DNA of 8,911 nt from an uncultured Sphingobium sp. (GTDB lineage: Bacteria; Pseudomonadota; Alphaproteobacteria; Sphingomonadales; Sphingomonadaceae). The notes below the pieces were generated by a model. The model was not told the DNA's origin. It was given only the letters and a program-made list of their open reading frames with translations, and did not search any database. The DNA lies in assembly GCA_946479185.1 (NCBI GenBank), contig CAMLFF010000118.1, positions 1 to 8,911 on the forward strand, written 5' to 3'. Positions within the stretch are counted from its first letter, which is position 1. Every line of letters begins with the position of its first letter. Position numbers and translations under genes: made by a program. This document shows, one piece after another, positions 2,201 to 8,896 of the stretch.

Positions 2201-5200
2201 TTAAAATTTGAAGTTCGCGCCGATCACGAAGCGGCGGCCGATCAGATCATAAGACTGCCCCGATGAGCCACCGCTGTTCGCACCGATGGCGCCGCCGACG
2301 AGCTCGCCATTCGCGCGATTTGGTGCTGTGTTATAGTTGATGAGCGGCGGCGCCTTATCGAACAGATTGTCCACGCCGAAGCGCAGCGTGGCATTGGAGG
2401 TCACCGCGATCGATCCGTTCAGGTTAAACAGGTCGTAAGCCGGGGCGCCGAAGGTCGTTGTGGTGGGATTGGTCGCGTAGGCCGACGACTTGGTCGCGGG
2501 CAGATGCTGCCATTGCAGCGCGATGCGGAAGCCATCAAGCGCATAGCTGACGGTGTTGAACATCTTCCAGCGATAGGAACTACCGGGGTTCAGCCCGTTC
2601 TGGTTCGTGCCCATCGTGCCCGCAAATTCCCGCAGCGGATTCGCCGGATTGTCTGACGATTTGAGGCTCAGCAGATAGCTGAATACACTGGAGAAACCGA
2701 GGCGACCCGGAATACCGACGCCTGCATCATCCATGTTGAGCGACCAATCCAGCTGCGCATCGATGCCCGATGTCAGGATGCGGCCAAAATTCTGATACTG
2801 GCCAACAAGATCGCCAATCGTGCCGATGCCGACATTGCGCACCACGGCCTGACAGCCGGCGGAATTGGGATCGAGCGTGGGATTGAAGGCAGTATCGAAG
2901 CATTTCTGCTGGATAAAATCGCCCGTTTCCGCGCCGATCGCATCGTCAATCTTCACCCGGTAATAGTCGACCGAAAGCCGCAGGCCGGTGAGCCAGGCCG
3001 ATTGTGATGGCGCAGTCAGCACCATGCCCGCCGTCCATGTCTCGGCCTTTTCCGGCTGCACGTTGAGATTACCGGTTGTTGTCGCGAAGCCGGTGGTCGA
3101 TCCGGTGATCTGCGCCGCCGAGTAGAACTGACCGGAGCTTGTCGGATCGGTGCCGTTCATCAGCGTTTCGCACAGGGCGCGCACGGCGGCGCGGTTGGTC
3201 GTGTTCGCCGGGCCTGCGCCATAAGGGAGCAGGTTGTTCGTGCTGGAGCAGGCATCGCCGCGCGTGAGGCTGACGAAGGATTGCTGCGGCGCCTGATAAA
3301 GCTCGGCAATGTTCGGCGCGCGCTCAGCCTTGTTGAACCCACCGCGGAAGCGCAGCCAGTCCGTCACTTGCCAATCGGCCAGCGCCTTCCAGGTGAGGCT
3401 GCTGCCCGTGGCGCTATAATCGGATGTGCGGACGCCCAACTCAAGCTCGAGCTTTTTGATGAGCGGCAAATCGGCCAGCAGCGGCACGAGCAACTCGCCA
3501 TAAAACTCCCAGACGGAAATCTGCCCTTCCGAATTGCCGCTTGGATAGAGGCCGACCGCCTGATCGAGGAAGGATGTGCCCTGCGTCGTCAGCGTGTCGT
3601 TGATGTAGGAGAAGGTGTTGCGGCGGTAGCTGGCGCCAAGTGCTGCACGCAAATCGCCTGCGGGCAGCTTGAACAGGGTGCCCTGCGCATTCGCTTCCCA
3701 ATTGGTCTGCTGCATGGTCGAGCTGGCCTTGATGTCGGCCGAGATCGCATCGATGCAATCCTGCGTCACCGGGGCATCGCTGAAAGGGTTCATGCCGCTG
3801 GTGCAGGTGGCGCTTGCGGCGCCAAAGCCGCCCTGGCTCGCATTGCCCTGCGCGCTGAAACCAGCGCCCCAATTGGGCGCGCGCAGAACCGTGCGGTAGC
3901 GCTCGAGTGAGACGAAGCCCGTGAGCAGAAAGTCCGTGCGCGATTCGCCCTGCGAGCCGGAAATATCCCAGGTCCAGTCCGATCCGGGAATGCTGCCCTC
4001 AAGCGCCACCAGCATCTGATAGGTGAACACATCAGCACTGACCGTGCGCGGCCTTTCGAGCGGATATTGGTTGAGCTGCCAGTCGCATGTCGCTGCCGAG
4101 CCCGGCACCGCCGCGCTCGCGCCCGCGCAATTGAGCGCTGCCAGTGCAGCAGGCGATGTGCCTGCCGCCGGTGTCCGGCTCGCGAGAATGCGCGCGAACT
4201 CGCTGGGGATCGCGCGGCCGTCCACAGGCACGTTGACGCTCAAGCCGTTGCCGGCACCAGCGCGCTGCTGGATTGTTTCAGTCGAGGCCTTGTTGAAATA
4301 GCCCTGCGCCACGAGGCGCACCCAATCGGTAATCTCGTAATGCCCGCGCGTGTAAACATTCCAGCGGGTCAGCGGCAGGATGAGCTGATCGTCATTGAAA
4401 TTCTCGGAGATGAACCCGGCGGCATTGTCATGCAGGCCCGGCCCCTGCGGACCATTGTAGCGATAGGCCCCTGCCCGCGTGGCGAAATTGTTCACGCCGC
4501 CAAAAGCCGTGCCATCGCTATTGAACCACACATTGCCCGTGGTCGGATAATTGGGGAATGCCGCCACATTGCGACCAGCGAAGATGCTGTTCATCACCCC
4601 CTGCGAAGGCCGGTTCACGCCCGGAACATAGGTTGGGTAGATGGAAAAGGTCTGGTTGCCTGGCACTTCCGGGCTCAGATAGAAATCGCGAAACCATCTG
4701 CGATCGATCCGCCGCGCGGAATTGCGATTGTTGGTCTCGAAACTCATGCTCACATTGCCGCGATTATCGGCAAAGTCCGATCCCATGATGCCGCTGATCT
4801 GATATTCCTGCTCATCGCCGCGCTGGGTGATGCCCATGCGGCCATCCAGCTCCAGCCCCTGAAAATTCTTCTTGAGGATGAAGTTGACGACGCCACCCAC
4901 AGCATCCGCGCCATAGGTGGCAGAGGCGCCGCCCGTGATGATCTCGACCCGCTCGATCGCAGCGGAGGGAATAGAATTGATGTCCACCACCATGTTCGCA
5001 TTGCCGGGCGTTGCGCGGCGGCCATCGAGCAGCACCACATTGCGGTTGGCGCCCAGGCCTCGCAATGAGACGCTGGCCGCGCCGGGCGTGTTCGTCGCCG
5101 TCGCCTGAATGTCACCGCCGAGCGCTGGCGTTTGCGCAGGGGTGAATTGGGGCAGCTTGTTGAGGCTGGTCTCGATGGCCGAACTTGTGGAGCTTTGCAG

Positions 5201-5410
5201 CAATTCGGTGCCAACCGTCACGATCGGGCTGTTCGCCTCATAATCGCGCCGCGCGATGCGCGAGCCGGTGATGACGATTGCCTGACTTTCACTCGCTGCG
5301 TCATTCTGCGGCGCTTCCTGCGCGAGCGCTGGCCCTGTGGCGATGATCGCTCCGCCGGTCACGACGCTCGCAAGCAGCATCGCGCGGACCCGTCCTGTGA
5401 AGTCAGTCAT
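2201..5410 (-). CDS. TonB-dependent outer-membrane receptor
   Basis: 1069 aa, at the long end for this family. It is a 22-strand barrel with an N-terminal plug that takes up a ligand using TonB-ExbBD energy. Residues 1-30 are a signal peptide (LLASVVTGGAIIATG core, ALA before Q31). AIVITGSRI (44-52) is the TonB-box-like start usual in sphingomonad and caulobacter receptors. The plug (about 55-220) carries LRGLG (116-120), LLDGRR (127-132), IERVEIITGG (152-161) and ATYGADAVGGVVNF (164-177). The barrel ends in NFKF, with the terminal Phe needed for outer-membrane insertion. The mature protein has eight Cys in four close pairs, probably loop disulfides. The chosen start has AGGGAG (5423-5418) seven bases upstream and gives a clean signal peptide; an in-frame ATG at 5575 does neither. 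Divergent from the Amt-MCP gene. The substrate cannot be read from sequence: siderophore, carbohydrate and peptide ligands are all possible. Confidence 0.92.
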   Translation of the reverse strand: MTDFTGRVRAMLLASVVTGGAIIATGPALAQEAPQNDAASESQAIVITGSRIARRDYEANSPIVTVGTELLQSSTSSAIETSLNKLPQFTPAQTPALGGDIQATATNTPGAASVSLRGLGANRNVVLLDGRRATPGNANMVVDINSIPSAAIERVEIITGGASATYGADAVGGVVNFILKKNFQGLELDGRMGITQRGDEQEYQISGIMGSDFADNRGNVSMSFETNNRNSARRIDRRWFRDFYLSPEVPGNQTFSIYPTYVPGVNRPSQGVMNSIFAGRNVAAFPNYPTTGNVWFNSDGTAFGGVNNFATRAGAYRYNGPQGPGLHDNAAGFISENFNDDQLILPLTRWNVYTRGHYEITDWVRLVAQGYFNKASTETIQQRAGAGNGLSVNVPVDGRAIPSEFARILASRTPAAGTSPAALAALNCAGASAAVPGSAATCDWQLNQYPLERPRTVSADVFTYQMLVALEGSIPGSDWTWDISGSQGESRTDFLLTGFVSLERYRTVLRAPNWGAGFSAQGNASQGGFGAASATCTSGMNPFSDAPVTQDCIDAISADIKASSTMQQTNWEANAQGTLFKLPAGDLRAALGASYRRNTFSYINDTLTTQGTSFLDQAVGLYPSGNSEGQISVWEFYGELLVPLLADLPLIKKLELELGVRTSDYSATGSSLTWKALADWQVTDWLRFRGGFNKAERAPNIAELYQAPQQSFVSLTRGDACSSTNNLLPYGAGPANTTNRAAVRALCETLMNGTDPTSSGQFYSAAQITGSTTGFATTTGNLNVQPEKAETWTAGMVLTAPSQSAWLTGLRLSVDYYRVKIDDAIGAETGDFIQQKCFDTAFNPTLDPNSAGCQAVVRNVGIGTIGDLVGQYQNFGRILTSGIDAQLDWSLNMDDAGVGIPGRLGFSSVFSYLLSLKSSDNPANPLREFAGTMGTNQNGLNPGSSYRWKMFNTVSYALDGFRIALQWQHLPATKSSAYATNPTTTTFGAPAYDLFNLNGSIAVTSNATLRFGVDNLFDKAPPLINYNTAPNRANGELVGGAIGANSGGSSGQSYDLIGRRFVIGANFKF

Positions 5411-5415
5411 CGTCT

Positions 5416-5423
5416 CTCTCCCT
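5416..5423 (-). promoter_or_regulatory. Ribosome binding site deciding the receptor start
   Basis: On the minus strand AGGGAGAG lies seven bases (counted from AGGGAG) before ATG at 5410. It supports this start over the 55-codon longer reading frame from 5575. Confidence 0.75.
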
Positions 5424-5581
5424 GTTTTATGGCGTGATATCAGCCATTCATTGCCCTGATTGCGCAGTGGCGATGGGAAGGGAGATTGGTGCGCACGGCT
5501 ATGCTCCAGCCATCGGGCCGTGCTCGCGCATGACCGGATGATCGCAAGCTTCCAGCACGGAAGCATCCTCTCCATTCCACT

Positions 5582-5605
5582 AATACTGTTGCTTGGGACA
5601 ATATT
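5582..5605. repeat. Imperfect inverted repeat, possible operator
   Basis: AATACTGT (5582-5589) and ACAATATT (5598-5605) match as inverted arms at seven of eight positions around an 8-bp spacer. The repeat sits in the AT-rich centre of the divergent region and overlaps the weak + strand -35 candidate. Its symmetry and place suit a dimeric repressor or activator site. The regulator is not identified. Confidence 0.35.
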
Positions 5606-5733
5606 TAGGTTGGTTTATCGTTAGCTGCCCTTAGTGTCACCGCGACAAAGGCCCTCTACGGTGCACCCAGCGAAATCTTGGGGGTTAACCCTGCGGCGCG
5701 CTGCACCGCTTCAGCGTGTCGTTCAGGCTATGG

Positions 5734-5761
5734 TGCAGGAAAATTAACCGCTTCTCCTGCA
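5734..5761. repeat. Inverted repeat upstream of the Amt-MCP ribosome site
   Basis: TGCAGGA (5734-5740) and TCCTGCA (5755-5761) are perfect 7-bp arms with a 14-base spacer, ending about 17 bases before the ribosome site. The left arm overlaps GGTGCAG (5732-5738), which is itself complementary to CTGCACC (5701-5707). The region could be a protein site or, if transcribed, two alternative RNA stems. Confidence 0.35.
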
Positions 5762-5778
5762 TGAGCGCATCTCCATCT

Positions 5779-5784
5779 AGGGGG
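5779..5784 (+). promoter_or_regulatory. Ribosome binding site of the Amt-MCP gene
   Basis: AGGGGG lies eight bases before the ATG at 5793. It supports that start, which also gives a complete signal peptide (AHA before G23). Confidence 0.7.
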
Positions 5785-5792
5785 TTGGCTTC

Positions 5793-8216
5793 ATGCGACT
5801 ATTCCGTGCGCTGTTGGTGATCGGCGCGACCGTTGCCGCGCCTTCCGCAGCCCATGCAGGCTGGATGGAGGCCGATAAAGACCCACTCGACCTCGTTTGG
5901 ATCACCATAGCAGCGATCTTCGTCGCCCTGATGCGCCTTGGCTTTCTGTTCTTGGAAGCCGGGATGGTCCGCTCCAAGAACAGCATCAATGTCGCGATGA
6001 AGAATTTCGCGGACTTCATCGTGGCTGGCCTGTGCTTTTCGCTCCTCGGCTTTGCAATCATGTTTGGCGCGAGCCAATCTGGCCTTATCGGCTGGACGAG
6101 CGATTTCGCGCTGGCAAGCTTCACCGGCTCAGGCGTGATTGCCTTCTTCTTCTTTCAGGTCATGTTCTGCGGCACGGCGGCGACGATCGTCTCCGGCGCG
6201 GTGGCCGAGCGCATGCGCTTTAGCGCCTATCTGCTGTTCACGGCCTTGCTGGCCGGGCTGGTCTATCCGATTGCTGGCCACTGGATCTGGGGCGGTCTGC
6301 TCACCGATACCGGGCCGGGCTGGCTGGAAGCGCTGGGCTTCGTCGATTTTGCAGGCTCGACCGTCGTGCATGTCGTTGGCGGCGTCGCCTCGCTTGCGGT
6401 GGTGATGGCTGTCGGCCCGCGCATCGGCAAGTTCACGGCTGATGGCGAACCTGTCCGCATCCAGGGCCACAGCCCCGTGCTGACGGCATCGGGCGCGCTG
6501 CTGCTGTGGGTCGGCTGGTTTGGCTTCAATGCTGGCGGCACCGTTCCAGGCACAGCGGTGTTCGAGCAGGCGCTGCTCAATACGCTGCTTGCGGGCGGCG
6601 CTGGAGGCCTGTTTGGGTTGCTGATGGGTCGGCGTATCGATGGCTATTATGTATATGAGCGCGCGACGAATGGCGTGATCGCGGGGCTGGTGGGCGTAAC
6701 GGCTGGCTGCGCAACCTCGACATCCCTTGGCGCGCTGGCGACCGGCATTGTTGCTGCTGGCTGCGCAATGGTCGCGCAACATTTAATGGAGCATCGCCTC
6801 AAACTGGATGATGCCGTGGGCGCCGTGCCCGTGCATGCCGTGGGCGGCGCGGTCGGCACGCTTTGCGTTCCCTTCGCGGCAGCGCCCGGCACGATGGCGA
6901 ATGGCTTATTGACGCAGGCAGGCGTGCAACTGCTTGGAGTGGTCTGCGTGGGTGGCTTCACATTCCTGTGCTGCTATTCGGCGTGCCGCCTGTGGAGGCG
7001 GTTCAACCTGCTGCGCATCAGCCCGCAGGAGGAAATGGCGGGGCTGAACGAATCCGAACATCGCACAAGGCTGGGCGCCGCGGATTTGCAGGCGGTGCTC
7101 ATGCAGCTTGTCAACGGTCAGGGTGGGCTTGATAGCCGCGTTTCGACCGATGCAGGCGCGGAGAGCGAAGATCTGGCGCTTGCCTTCAATGCGCTGCTGG
7201 AGAAGCTGGAGGTGGAGCAGAAGATGCTCAACGAAAAGCTGATGACCACCCACGCCAAGGCCGAGCTTGAGTTTACCCGGCGTGAGCGTGCCGAAATCGA
7301 GCGTGCCATCACCGAGGAGCAGCGCCTGCGCCATGACGCCCGCGAGGCTGGCCGCCGCGCGCAGCAGCTCGAAACGGTGCTCGCCTCATTCGATGAGACG
7401 ATTGCGCGCGCGGTCGAGACGGTTCTTCAGGCCTCGAGCGCACTCAACAGCACGGCAGATGCGCTCTCATCCGAGGCGGAGAATACAGATCACCGCGCCC
7501 TTGCCGCGTCCGACAATGCGAAGGAAGCGCTTGACCGGTCGATGGCCGTGGCCAGCGCGACCGAGCAAATGTCCATGAGCGTGCGCGAGATCGCAGGGCA
7601 AATGGACCTGATGCGCCGGGTCGCCGTGGAAACCGCCGAGACTGGCAAGAATGGCATGAGACTGTTCACCTCCCTCAATGAGAGCGCCGCGCAGATTTCC
7701 CAAATTGTGGACTTCATCCAGACGATGGCGAAGCAGACCAATTTGCTGGCGCTCAATGCGGGCATCGAGGCTGCACGCGCGGGCGATGCAGGCGTGGGCT
7801 TCGGCGTCGTCGCATCCGAAGTGAAGGGCCTGGCACATCAGACCAGCGAGGCCGCGGGCAACATCATGAAATGGATTGGCGATGTGACGCGCGCCATCAA
7901 TGAGGCGATGGCCGCGATGACCAGCATTGCCGGTGCTGTTGAGAAGACCGAGACGGCGACAGTGTCGGTTGCTTCCATCGTTTCACAACAGGCCGACGCG
8001 ACGCATGAGATCAGCCTGCATGCCTCGCGTGCGGCGCGCGTGTCGATGGATTTCAACGGACAGATGAATGACCTCTCCGTCACGACCCGCTCGACGCGCA
8101 TTTCCGCCGATGATGTGCGTCAGGCCTCTGCACGGCTGAGCGAGATGGCGCGCAATCTGAGTGACTCGCTCGCGACGGAATTCAGCCAGTTCAAGAAGCG
8201 CGTGGGCGATATCTAG
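5793..8216 (+). CDS. Ammonium transporter (Amt) fused to methyl-accepting chemotaxis signalling domain
   Basis: 807 aa inner-membrane protein with two complete modules. Residues 1-22 look like a signal peptide, as in AmtB. Residues about 30-405 form the 11-helix Amt channel: [14 protein letters not shown] near the start, and the family signature DFAGSTVVH (185-193). By alignment by eye to E. coli AmtB, the Phe gate is F125/F245, twin histidines H193/H348, with W166, D185 and W242. The usual S1-site Ser is Gly (G249). [15 protein letters not shown] (409-423) is the Amt C-terminal tail. Residues 427-475 resemble HAMP (LDSRV, then [13 protein letters not shown]). A long coiled coil follows, then an MCP domain (about 540-795) with the hairpin tip [17 protein letters not shown] (648-664), which contacts CheA and CheW in known receptors. 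A partial methylation-type site is ASATEQ (587-592); no CheR-tether pentapeptide is present. Likely role: ammonium sensing coupled to a chemosensory kinase, transport retained or not. Annotation as a plain Amt or plain MCP would miss half of it. Confidence 0.93.
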
Positions 8217-8896
8217 CGCACGTTCAGCCCCAGCTCGCCGAGCAATTGCCCGGCCTGCTCGCGCGAGATGGTCGCGCCGCGAAACAGATTGGCATCCATC
8301 AGCCGCAAGCCGCCAATGTCCGCGCCGCGCAGATCCGCGCCCTCGAAGCGCGAACCCGTCATCACTGCATCGCGCAGACTGCACTCTTCGAAGGTCACGG
8401 CGCGGAAATCACATTTGCGCAAGTCTGCCTGCGCAAAGTCGATCTTGCTGAGCGTCTGCTTGCGGAAGGAGAAGCCGGGCAGCTTGGCGTGGATGAGCAG
8501 GCATTCCTCAAAGCGCAGCTCCAGTGTCTTGGCATCCGACAAATCCGCGCCGGTCAACTTGCAGCGCGTGAAGCTTGCCCCCGCCAGCGACGTGCGGCGG
8601 AGGATGCAATTGTTGAAATCGCTGGCGGTGATGGTCGCATCGCTCAGATCAGCGCCGGTAAATTGCGCGAAGGCGGCGCGGCAGGACGACCAGACCGTCC
8701 CCTCCAGCCTGGCACCGGTGACATCGGCATGGCGGAAATTGCAGCGTTCGAACGTCCAGCGGGTGAGATCGAGCCCGACGAGATGGGCCTCCTCCAGATC
8801 GCAATCGACGAGGCGGCTTGGCGACGGCAGGTGCTCGACATCTGCACGGCTGAGCACCTGATCGCGAACCGCGCGGTCGGAGAAAAGATCATCCAT
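8213..8896 (-). CDS. Pentapeptide-repeat protein, Qnr-like C-terminus
   Basis: 227 aa, no signal peptide or membrane segment, so cytoplasmic. From about residue 30 to 205 nearly every fifth residue is Leu, Phe or a similar hydrophobic preceded by A, C or a small residue ([38 protein letters not shown]). This is the A(D/N)LXX pattern of the right-handed quadrilateral beta-helix. After the repeats, [18 protein letters not shown] is a short amphipathic helix laid out like the C-terminal dimer helix of Qnr and McbG proteins, and the length is close to Qnr (about 218 aa). Qnr-type proteins mimic DNA and protect gyrase; whether this one does is inference, since most pentapeptide proteins have no known role. 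The ATG at 8896 lacks a clear ribosome site in the 15 visible bases upstream, so it may be translationally coupled to a gene beyond the edge, or start further up. Its TAG stop overlaps that of the Amt-MCP gene. Confidence 0.85.

Follow-up and report, generated by a model that had tools for sequence, protein, structure and literature searches.

A predicted ammonium chemoreceptor that joins a sensor-clade Amt domain to an MCP signalling hairpin

Ks-Amt5 from Kuenenia stuttgartiensis (PDB 6eu6) combines a sensor-type Amt domain with a signalling module. Unlike the protein described here, it has a histidine kinase output and no HAMP domain; its ammonium ligands are Q24, E31, N47, D50, T51, T109 and T112; ammonium is bound without efficient transport; and the protein elutes as a trimer with its kinase modules attached (PMC5764959). 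Fusions of Amt to other domains had already been noted before 2018 (PMC5764959). A related receptor from Shewanella denitrificans, Sd-Amt1, is represented by PDB entries 8qj3, 8qj4 and 8qpf, titled 'Receptor Sd-Amt1' in an ON and an OFF state. We take its output to be a diguanylate cyclase, and a 2024 Sd-Amt1 paper (Sci. Adv.) reportedly describes a HAMP connector with domains that interact in pairs.

Here we describe a gene that appears to give this known, structurally characterized sensor class (Ks-Amt5, Sd-Amt1) an MCP output, in a form that is seemingly unstudied. The gene lies in the window, by which we mean the whole 8,911-nucleotide stretch of DNA that was analysed, from an uncultured Sphingobium sp. 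It encodes one conserved protein in which an Amt domain of the sensor clade is followed by a HAMP-like connector and an MCP hairpin; on sequence grounds this protein is likely to be a transmembrane ammonium chemoreceptor. No account of an Amt-MCP was found in the literature searched, which included few subscription papers and is weak evidence on this point.

Ks-Amt5 and Sd-Amt1 are the top PDB matches of the window's Amt domain by sequence and by fold, and fall in the same tree clade; a covalent cytoplasmic signalling module, as in Ks-Amt5-type receptors, is present by Pfam. The Amt domain of Sd-Amt1 is 42–44% identical to that of the window, has the same fold and shares its site residues (S134 and F75 included) and GLN motif, with Gln in place of R48. 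The equivalents of Ks-Amt5 E31, N47, D50 and T109 are kept, whereas Q24, T51, T112, Y30 and F34 differ. With transmembrane MCPs of the Tsr class the protein has MCPsignal, tip and hairpin in common, but it uses an Amt membrane domain as sensor and has no periplasmic ligand-binding domain. An NWETF-type pentapeptide, the C-terminal motif of MCPs such as the Tsr class, is not in its sequence. The AmtB and Amt-1 transporters share its fold and pore residues, but are unfused, end in a C-terminal GLD motif (absent from the window's protein, which has GLN instead) and, in most of those sampled, lack the Ks-Amt5 site.

Domain architecture and gene context

The gene and its surroundings contain the following features:
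Positions 2 to 1150: HemN/HemW-like radical-SAM protein, a neighbour (Pfam)
Positions 1226 to 2140: neighbouring ORF without a Pfam match
Positions 2201 to 5575, minus strand: TonB-dependent receptor, a neighbour (Pfam)
Positions 5779 to 5784, plus strand: AGGGGG, a ribosome-binding-like stretch 8 nt ahead of the ATG, read from the sequence
Positions 5793 to 8216, plus strand: Amt-MCP gene, 807 codons plus stop (ORF reading, Pfam, full-length relatives)
Positions 5793 to 5858, plus strand: putative, probably cleaved signal peptide, residues 1–22 (ending SAAHA, followed by GW), predicted from sequence
Positions 5895 to 7064, plus strand: Amt domain, residues 35–424 (Pfam Ammonium_transp, PF00909, E 5.5e-102)
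Positions 7071 to 7214, plus strand: HAMP-like connector, residues 427–474 (conservation, HAMP matches of relatives, linker profile)
Positions 7314 to 7385, plus strand: predicted flexible break between HAMP-like helix and hairpin, residues 508–531 (AlphaFold2 pLDDT <50)
Positions 7377 to 8210, plus strand: MCP coiled-coil hairpin, residues 529–806 (AlphaFold2, fold comparison)
Positions 7734 to 7784, plus strand: 17-residue hairpin tip, residues 648–664 (sequence motif)
Positions 8213 to 8896, minus strand: pentapeptide-repeat protein of 227 aa, a neighbour (Pfam)

The initial annotation had described a single uninterrupted frame of 807 codons comprising Amt, connector and MCP, and had proposed a domain search. 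The frame is free of stops from the ATG at 5793 to the stop at 8216 on the plus strand, Pfam finds Ammonium_transp and MCPsignal in one chain, and the AlphaFold2 model agrees with this architecture. That model, built from a 94-sequence alignment, has a mean pLDDT of 85.7 and a pTM of 0.61, with Amt blocks mostly at 90–98. Two stretches fall below 50, the break at residues 508–531 and residues 16–27, and values drop to 50–56 around the putative signal peptide. Cleavage of this peptide would probably leave the N-terminus outside; the N-terminus of AmtB is likewise outside.

Of the residues that had been claimed for the Amt part, H193/H348 and F125/F245 align with the twin His and Phe gate of solved Amts. 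W166 and D185 align with their conserved Trp and Asp, and none of these positions varies across the 118 Amt-MCP rows (the window's row included and redundant rows kept, without de-duplication).

The reading of a HAMP-like connector was right, although it is weak in the window's own copy, where PF00672 gives no Pfam match even at E 10 and the gathering score is not reached. Of 60 relatives scanned, drawn from the 110 Amt-MCPs listed, 27 match PF00672 at E ≤0.01, and in an alignment of 94 Amt-MCPs conservation is 90% or higher at connector residues L427, G428, L432, L446, R449, E457 and N466. AlphaFold2 places a short helix (430–440) and a long helix (459–506) after the Amt block, which we read as the predicted two arms of the HAMP-like part.

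The coiled coil and MCP tip of the original description are borne out by the tip motif, by PF00015 (MCPsignal, residues 622–750, E 2.9e-28) and by a predicted antiparallel hairpin (529–662/664–806, pLDDT about 77–86 except at the ends). The tip presumably makes the CheA/CheW and trimer contacts, by homology to Tsr, and N655, A656, E659, G667, F670 and V673 in this region are invariant in the 94 aligned Amt-MCPs. The best-ranked Foldseek hits of the model are Sd-Amt1, Ks-Amt5 and further Amts. In VIA-align, residues about 26–429 match Amts and 525–807 match chemoreceptor hairpins, the latter match barely exceeding that of an unrelated coiled coil. The flexible break predicted between connector and hairpin counts against the chemoreceptor reading.

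Pfam gives no che-family match among the four neighbours in the window. The pentapeptide-repeat gene is convergent with the Amt-MCP gene and overlaps its stop by 4 bases. A nitrogen-regulated promoter was rejected for the Amt-MCP gene: the sigma-54 consensus TGGCAC-N5-TTGCW, with up to two mismatches, has no match in 5576–5792, and its three matches elsewhere in the window are fewer than the chance mean of 6.26. A sigma-70 scan across 5400–8500 gave 0 hits.

Links to chemotaxis proteins

CheA (PF02895) is present in nine of nine relatives' genomes checked, including seven of seven with an Amt-MCP (G989 lies outside this set), against a background of 169 of 385 genomes in a class sample. As specific proof of chemotaxis this co-occurrence is weakened by the other Amt fusions, whose class-sample genomes also have CheA in 19 of 22 cases (22 of 25 for fused-Amt genomes overall). 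Since 22 of these 25 genomes are kinase-type by best match, genome size or lifestyle may explain the CheA excess.

The chemotaxis genes themselves form clusters. A ChpT-CheA-CheW-CheY-CheB-CheR cluster occurs in sphingomonads at loci L142 (8567–14556) and L141 (8790–14095). The row in genome G074 comprises HPTransfase (ChpT-like), CheA, CheW, a receiver (CheY-like), CheB and CheR, all Pfam-checked; in G377, CheA, CheW and the receiver are Pfam-checked, and CheB- and CheR-like frames were recognized by eye. There is one CheA in each genome, with five PF00015 matches in G377 (one with an internal stop) and three in G074. Amt-MCP and CheA are on separate contigs in G377 and about 1.3 Mb apart in G074. 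Encoded away from the che cluster in both, the Amt-MCP would enter the array of the host's other MCPs.

Equal hairpin length with host-type MCPs was considered, but of the six non-Amt MCPs compared only L151 (G074) and L156 (G233) align gaplessly with the hairpin for 130 residues in both directions from the tip. A 14-residue gap is needed against L149, L150 and L153, and two compensating 7-residue gaps against L154; L150 is the only non-Amt MCP compared from G377, the nearest genome. Because four of the six require gaps of 7–14 residues, joint arrays with the Amt-MCP are not assured. These gaps, the lack of CheA specificity for an MCP output and the absence of a flagellin match in G074 all weigh against the chemoreceptor reading.

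The output might be something other than swimming, with the CheA system serving surface, developmental or second-messenger behaviour. Flagellin has a match in seven of the nine genomes checked and none in G074 (Amt-MCP) and G233 (Amt-GGDEF-EAL); G074 thus combines an Amt-MCP and a che cluster with no flagellin match, has no PilT-family match over the cut-off (one weak match) and belongs to a side clade in which the tip is altered (to RRTN or RRAN, with His or Asn in place of the Arg in EAARAG). Flagellin is nevertheless found in six of the seven Amt-MCP genomes, among them G377, the genome nearest to the window (75% identity), and we regard a non-swimming output as unlikely for the window's protein. 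Altered-tip Amt-MCPs are P0017, P0018, P0019 and L085; one such genome (G074) was examined, and it gave no flagellin match.

The predicted ammonium site and the transporter question

The residues at issue, located by alignment, are:
Positions 5934 to 5936, plus strand: codon 48, CGC, Arg at the Ks-Amt5 ligand position Gln24
Positions 5955 to 6014, plus strand: predicted ammonium site, E55, N71 and D74, equivalents of Ks-Amt5 E31, N47 and D50
Positions 6183 to 6185 and 6192 to 6194, plus strand: T131 and S134, predicted ammonium-site residues
Positions 6537 to 6539, plus strand: codon 249, GGC, Gly at the Ks-Amt5 selectivity Ser227 position
Positions 7047 to 7049, plus strand: codon 419, encoding the Asn of the C-terminal GLN motif, a position held by Asp in unfused Amts

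In order, the Ks-Amt5 ligands correspond to R48, E55, N71, D74, F75, T131 and S134, of which four of seven are identical (E55, N71, D74 and T131). Conservation across the 118 Amt-MCP rows is close to complete (E55 118, N71 117, D74 116, T131 118, S134 118), and the E, N and D are also kept in 38 of 38 readable kinase-type rows from loci and in 13 of 13 cyclase rows.

The initial annotation proposed a chemoreceptor with a channel as its ligand module. An ammonium chemoreceptor is likely, but the term 'channel' is unproven; the Amt domain sits in the clade of Ks-Amt5, which does not transport efficiently. One alternative is that the domain still conducts ammonium and that what the MCP reports is flux, or the state of the pore, instead of equilibrium binding. 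The invariance of the twin His, Phe gate, Trp and Asp would suit such a protein, as would the loss of two of the three bulky side chains that block the Ks-Amt5 pore (F27 is kept as F51, whereas Y30 and F34 are L54 and M58). All fused forms, however, share one clade with Ks-Amt5, an inefficient transporter (PMC5764959), and the selectivity Ser is Gly in the window's protein, so that we consider conduction with flux reporting improbable.

The site in the window's lineage might instead be retuned, with Arg48 replacing one bound ammonium, so that the receptor would be biased or would respond selectively to a different cation or to pH. Arg at the Gln24 position is confined to the window's protein and P0003 (Q in 115 rows, R in 2, L in 1), and position 249 is Gly in 19 of 118 Amt-MCP rows, as against Ser in 98 of 98 unfused Amts. 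These two substitutions in the window's copy also count against its being an ammonium chemoreceptor. The retention of E55, N71, D74 and T131, and the Gln at position 48 of the close relatives P0002 and P0004, make a change of specificity quite unlikely.

A sensor of ammonium remains the preferred reading, but the site is rejected as an exclusive mark of sensors: Asp at the D50 position occurs in 7 of 98 unfused Amts from the same searches, and the unfused lineage of one of these seven, L003, keeps the site throughout, so that the seven are no chance finding. In that lineage (L003 and other matches listed, 120 proteins that are 78–100% identical and so count as one lineage), Q, E, N, D and T are present in 120 of 120 and S in 119 of 120. 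Its members, L003 (1323–2729) and P0121–P0240, have no output domain, and those with names are Desulfobacterales or Deltaproteobacteria. The site therefore predates fusion or is independent of it; that an unfused lineage already has it suggests that it arose ahead of the fusions.

Residue 419 is a cleaner mark of fused and unfused forms than the ammonium site. It is Asn in 172 of 172 fused Amts (118 MCP, 40 kinase-type, 13 cyclase and 1 partial) and Asp, giving GLD, in 98 of 98 unfused Amts sampled and in 120 of 120 of the L003 lineage among the matches listed. These counts leave out one row with masked stretches; loci were sorted as fused or unfused by score, length and motifs, with 10 Pfam-checked, and cyclase rows were assigned by precomputed Pfam domains (9), by Pfam check (L087) or by motif (L122 and L127). 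GLN as against GLD is possibly a one-residue marker of sensor function, to judge from these alignments.

Distribution, exchange of outputs and receptor symmetry

Both PF00909 and PF00015 occur in 109 of the 119 other proteins among the matches listed; nine of the rest have GGDEF (with EAL) outputs and one is a partial protein without an output domain. Pfam finds both domains in all 60 relatives scanned. Identity to the window's protein ranges from 79% down to 31% (94 aligned, of 110 Amt-MCPs listed), and source names among the matches listed include Sphingobium, Blastomonas, Sphingorhabdus, Azospirillum, Roseospirillum, Pseudooceanicola, Methylococcales and Bradymonadia. A comparison of the window's gene with that of G377 over 768 aligned codons (75% identity) gives dN/dS values of 0.27 for the Amt part, 0.15 for the linker and 0.09 for the hairpin (dS 0.87–1.08), so both halves are under purifying selection and have been kept. 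A frameshift or misassembly joining two genes, which the initial annotation had named as a possible refutation, is ruled out to near certainty, as the relatives are full-length proteins with both domains rather than two genes, all three parts are under purifying selection and no point in its favour was found.

The G377 copy (L140, about 8964–9140) shows an apparent frame loss where a short stretch close to the start is duplicated in tandem; its close relative P0004 is listed at full length, and the frame loss could be an assembly error.

A survey of Sphingomonadales, suggested at the outset, found the architecture present but rare, and it extends beyond the order. Matches at E 1e-70 or better occur in 4 of 396 genomes, with Pfam identifying MCP fusions in G377 and G074 (Amt-MCP in at least 2 of 396), a kinase fusion in G057 and a GGDEF-EAL fusion in G233. 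In the class sample, 25 of 385 genomes match at E 1e-90; MCP fusions are Pfam-checked in G431, G520 and G685, and the remaining 22 are assigned as kinase-type from score, length and C-terminal motif alone. Within the order of Skermanella, 17 of 82 genomes match; G794 and G853 carry MCP fusions, and G002 has a Pfam-checked kinase fusion. The phylum sample gave 18 of 398 genomes at E 1e-85, with an MCP output in G074 and also in G989, where the assignment depends on the tip motif alone; most of the remainder are GGDEF, G1083 is unfused and G1129 was not placed. All these counts are lower bounds because only the best few candidates per genome were scored. The Amt-MCP pairing is spread over several bacterial groups, and MCP is a minority partner of sensor-type Amt in the genome surveys.

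Outputs have been exchanged repeatedly on one sensor clade. A quick tree (LG+G4, SH-aLRT only) was built from 128 Amt domains, leaving out the truncated L113 and L079, the partial P0092 and rows that exceeded the identity limits; in it, 77 MCP, 22 histidine kinase and 13 diguanylate cyclase fusions form one clade apart from 16 unfused Amts (support 96). Output labels change 8 times, against a possible minimum of 3, a figure that is no census since sampling centred on the window's protein. For example, P0064 (MCP) adjoins Sd-Amt1, and L086 (kinase, Pfam-checked) lies within an MCP clade. A linker profile built from 94 Amt-MCPs recognizes 24 of 24 further Amt-MCPs, 37 of 39 kinase-type and 11 of 13 cyclase fusions at E <1e-3, and 0 of 97 unfused Amts at the same threshold; the search omitted Ks-Amt5 and Af-Amt1 (Amt parts only). 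It misses L087 and Sd-Amt1, whose connector (E 2.5) lies beyond the profile. The reach of the profile over all three outputs argues that Amt plus connector travels as one input module.

In the chemoreceptor model, NH4+ would pass W166 and then fill the buried site (E55, N71, D74, T131, S134). The Amt trimer would shift conformation, the C-terminal GLN segment would relay this shift to the HAMP-like connector, and the MCP hairpins, necessarily paired two by two, would turn CheA activity up or down. As each Amt trimer has three strands, either two of the three would pair within one trimer or strands of neighbouring trimers would pair with each other; in the latter case two Amt trimers (six chains) would supply one trimer of MCP dimers. 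The trimer/dimer mismatch raised by the initial annotation is real but not peculiar to Amt-MCPs, since the Ks-Amt5 trimer with its kinase modules poses the same problem.

Chemoreceptor arrays have a spacing of 12 nm, and an Amt trimer is about 8 nm across. By a back-of-envelope estimate, the 12 chains of a unit cell of ~125 square nm would correspond to four Amt trimers of ~45 square nm each, ~180 in total. A pure Amt-MCP array at canonical spacing would therefore be overcrowded, suggesting a minority place in a mixed array or a different lattice. We tentatively raise, as a doubtful but not negligible extension, a class with a symmetry mismatch, in which each twofold hairpin dimer would bridge two threefold sensors, making one covalently cross-linked lattice that could not be the canonical 12-nm array if Amt-MCP were its sole receptor, and in which Asp-to-Asn at 419 would switch a transporter domain to a transmitter.

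The GLD/GLN difference offers a one-residue test of transporter versus sensor. As one sensor clade carries kinase, cyclase and MCP outputs, the action of the same input can be compared across outputs of differing symmetry. Cells with an Amt-MCP probably steer by ammonium, or otherwise respond to it, directly. If this is true, a single chain would couple recognition of a basic inorganic nutrient to CheA, providing a direct route to ammonium taxis.
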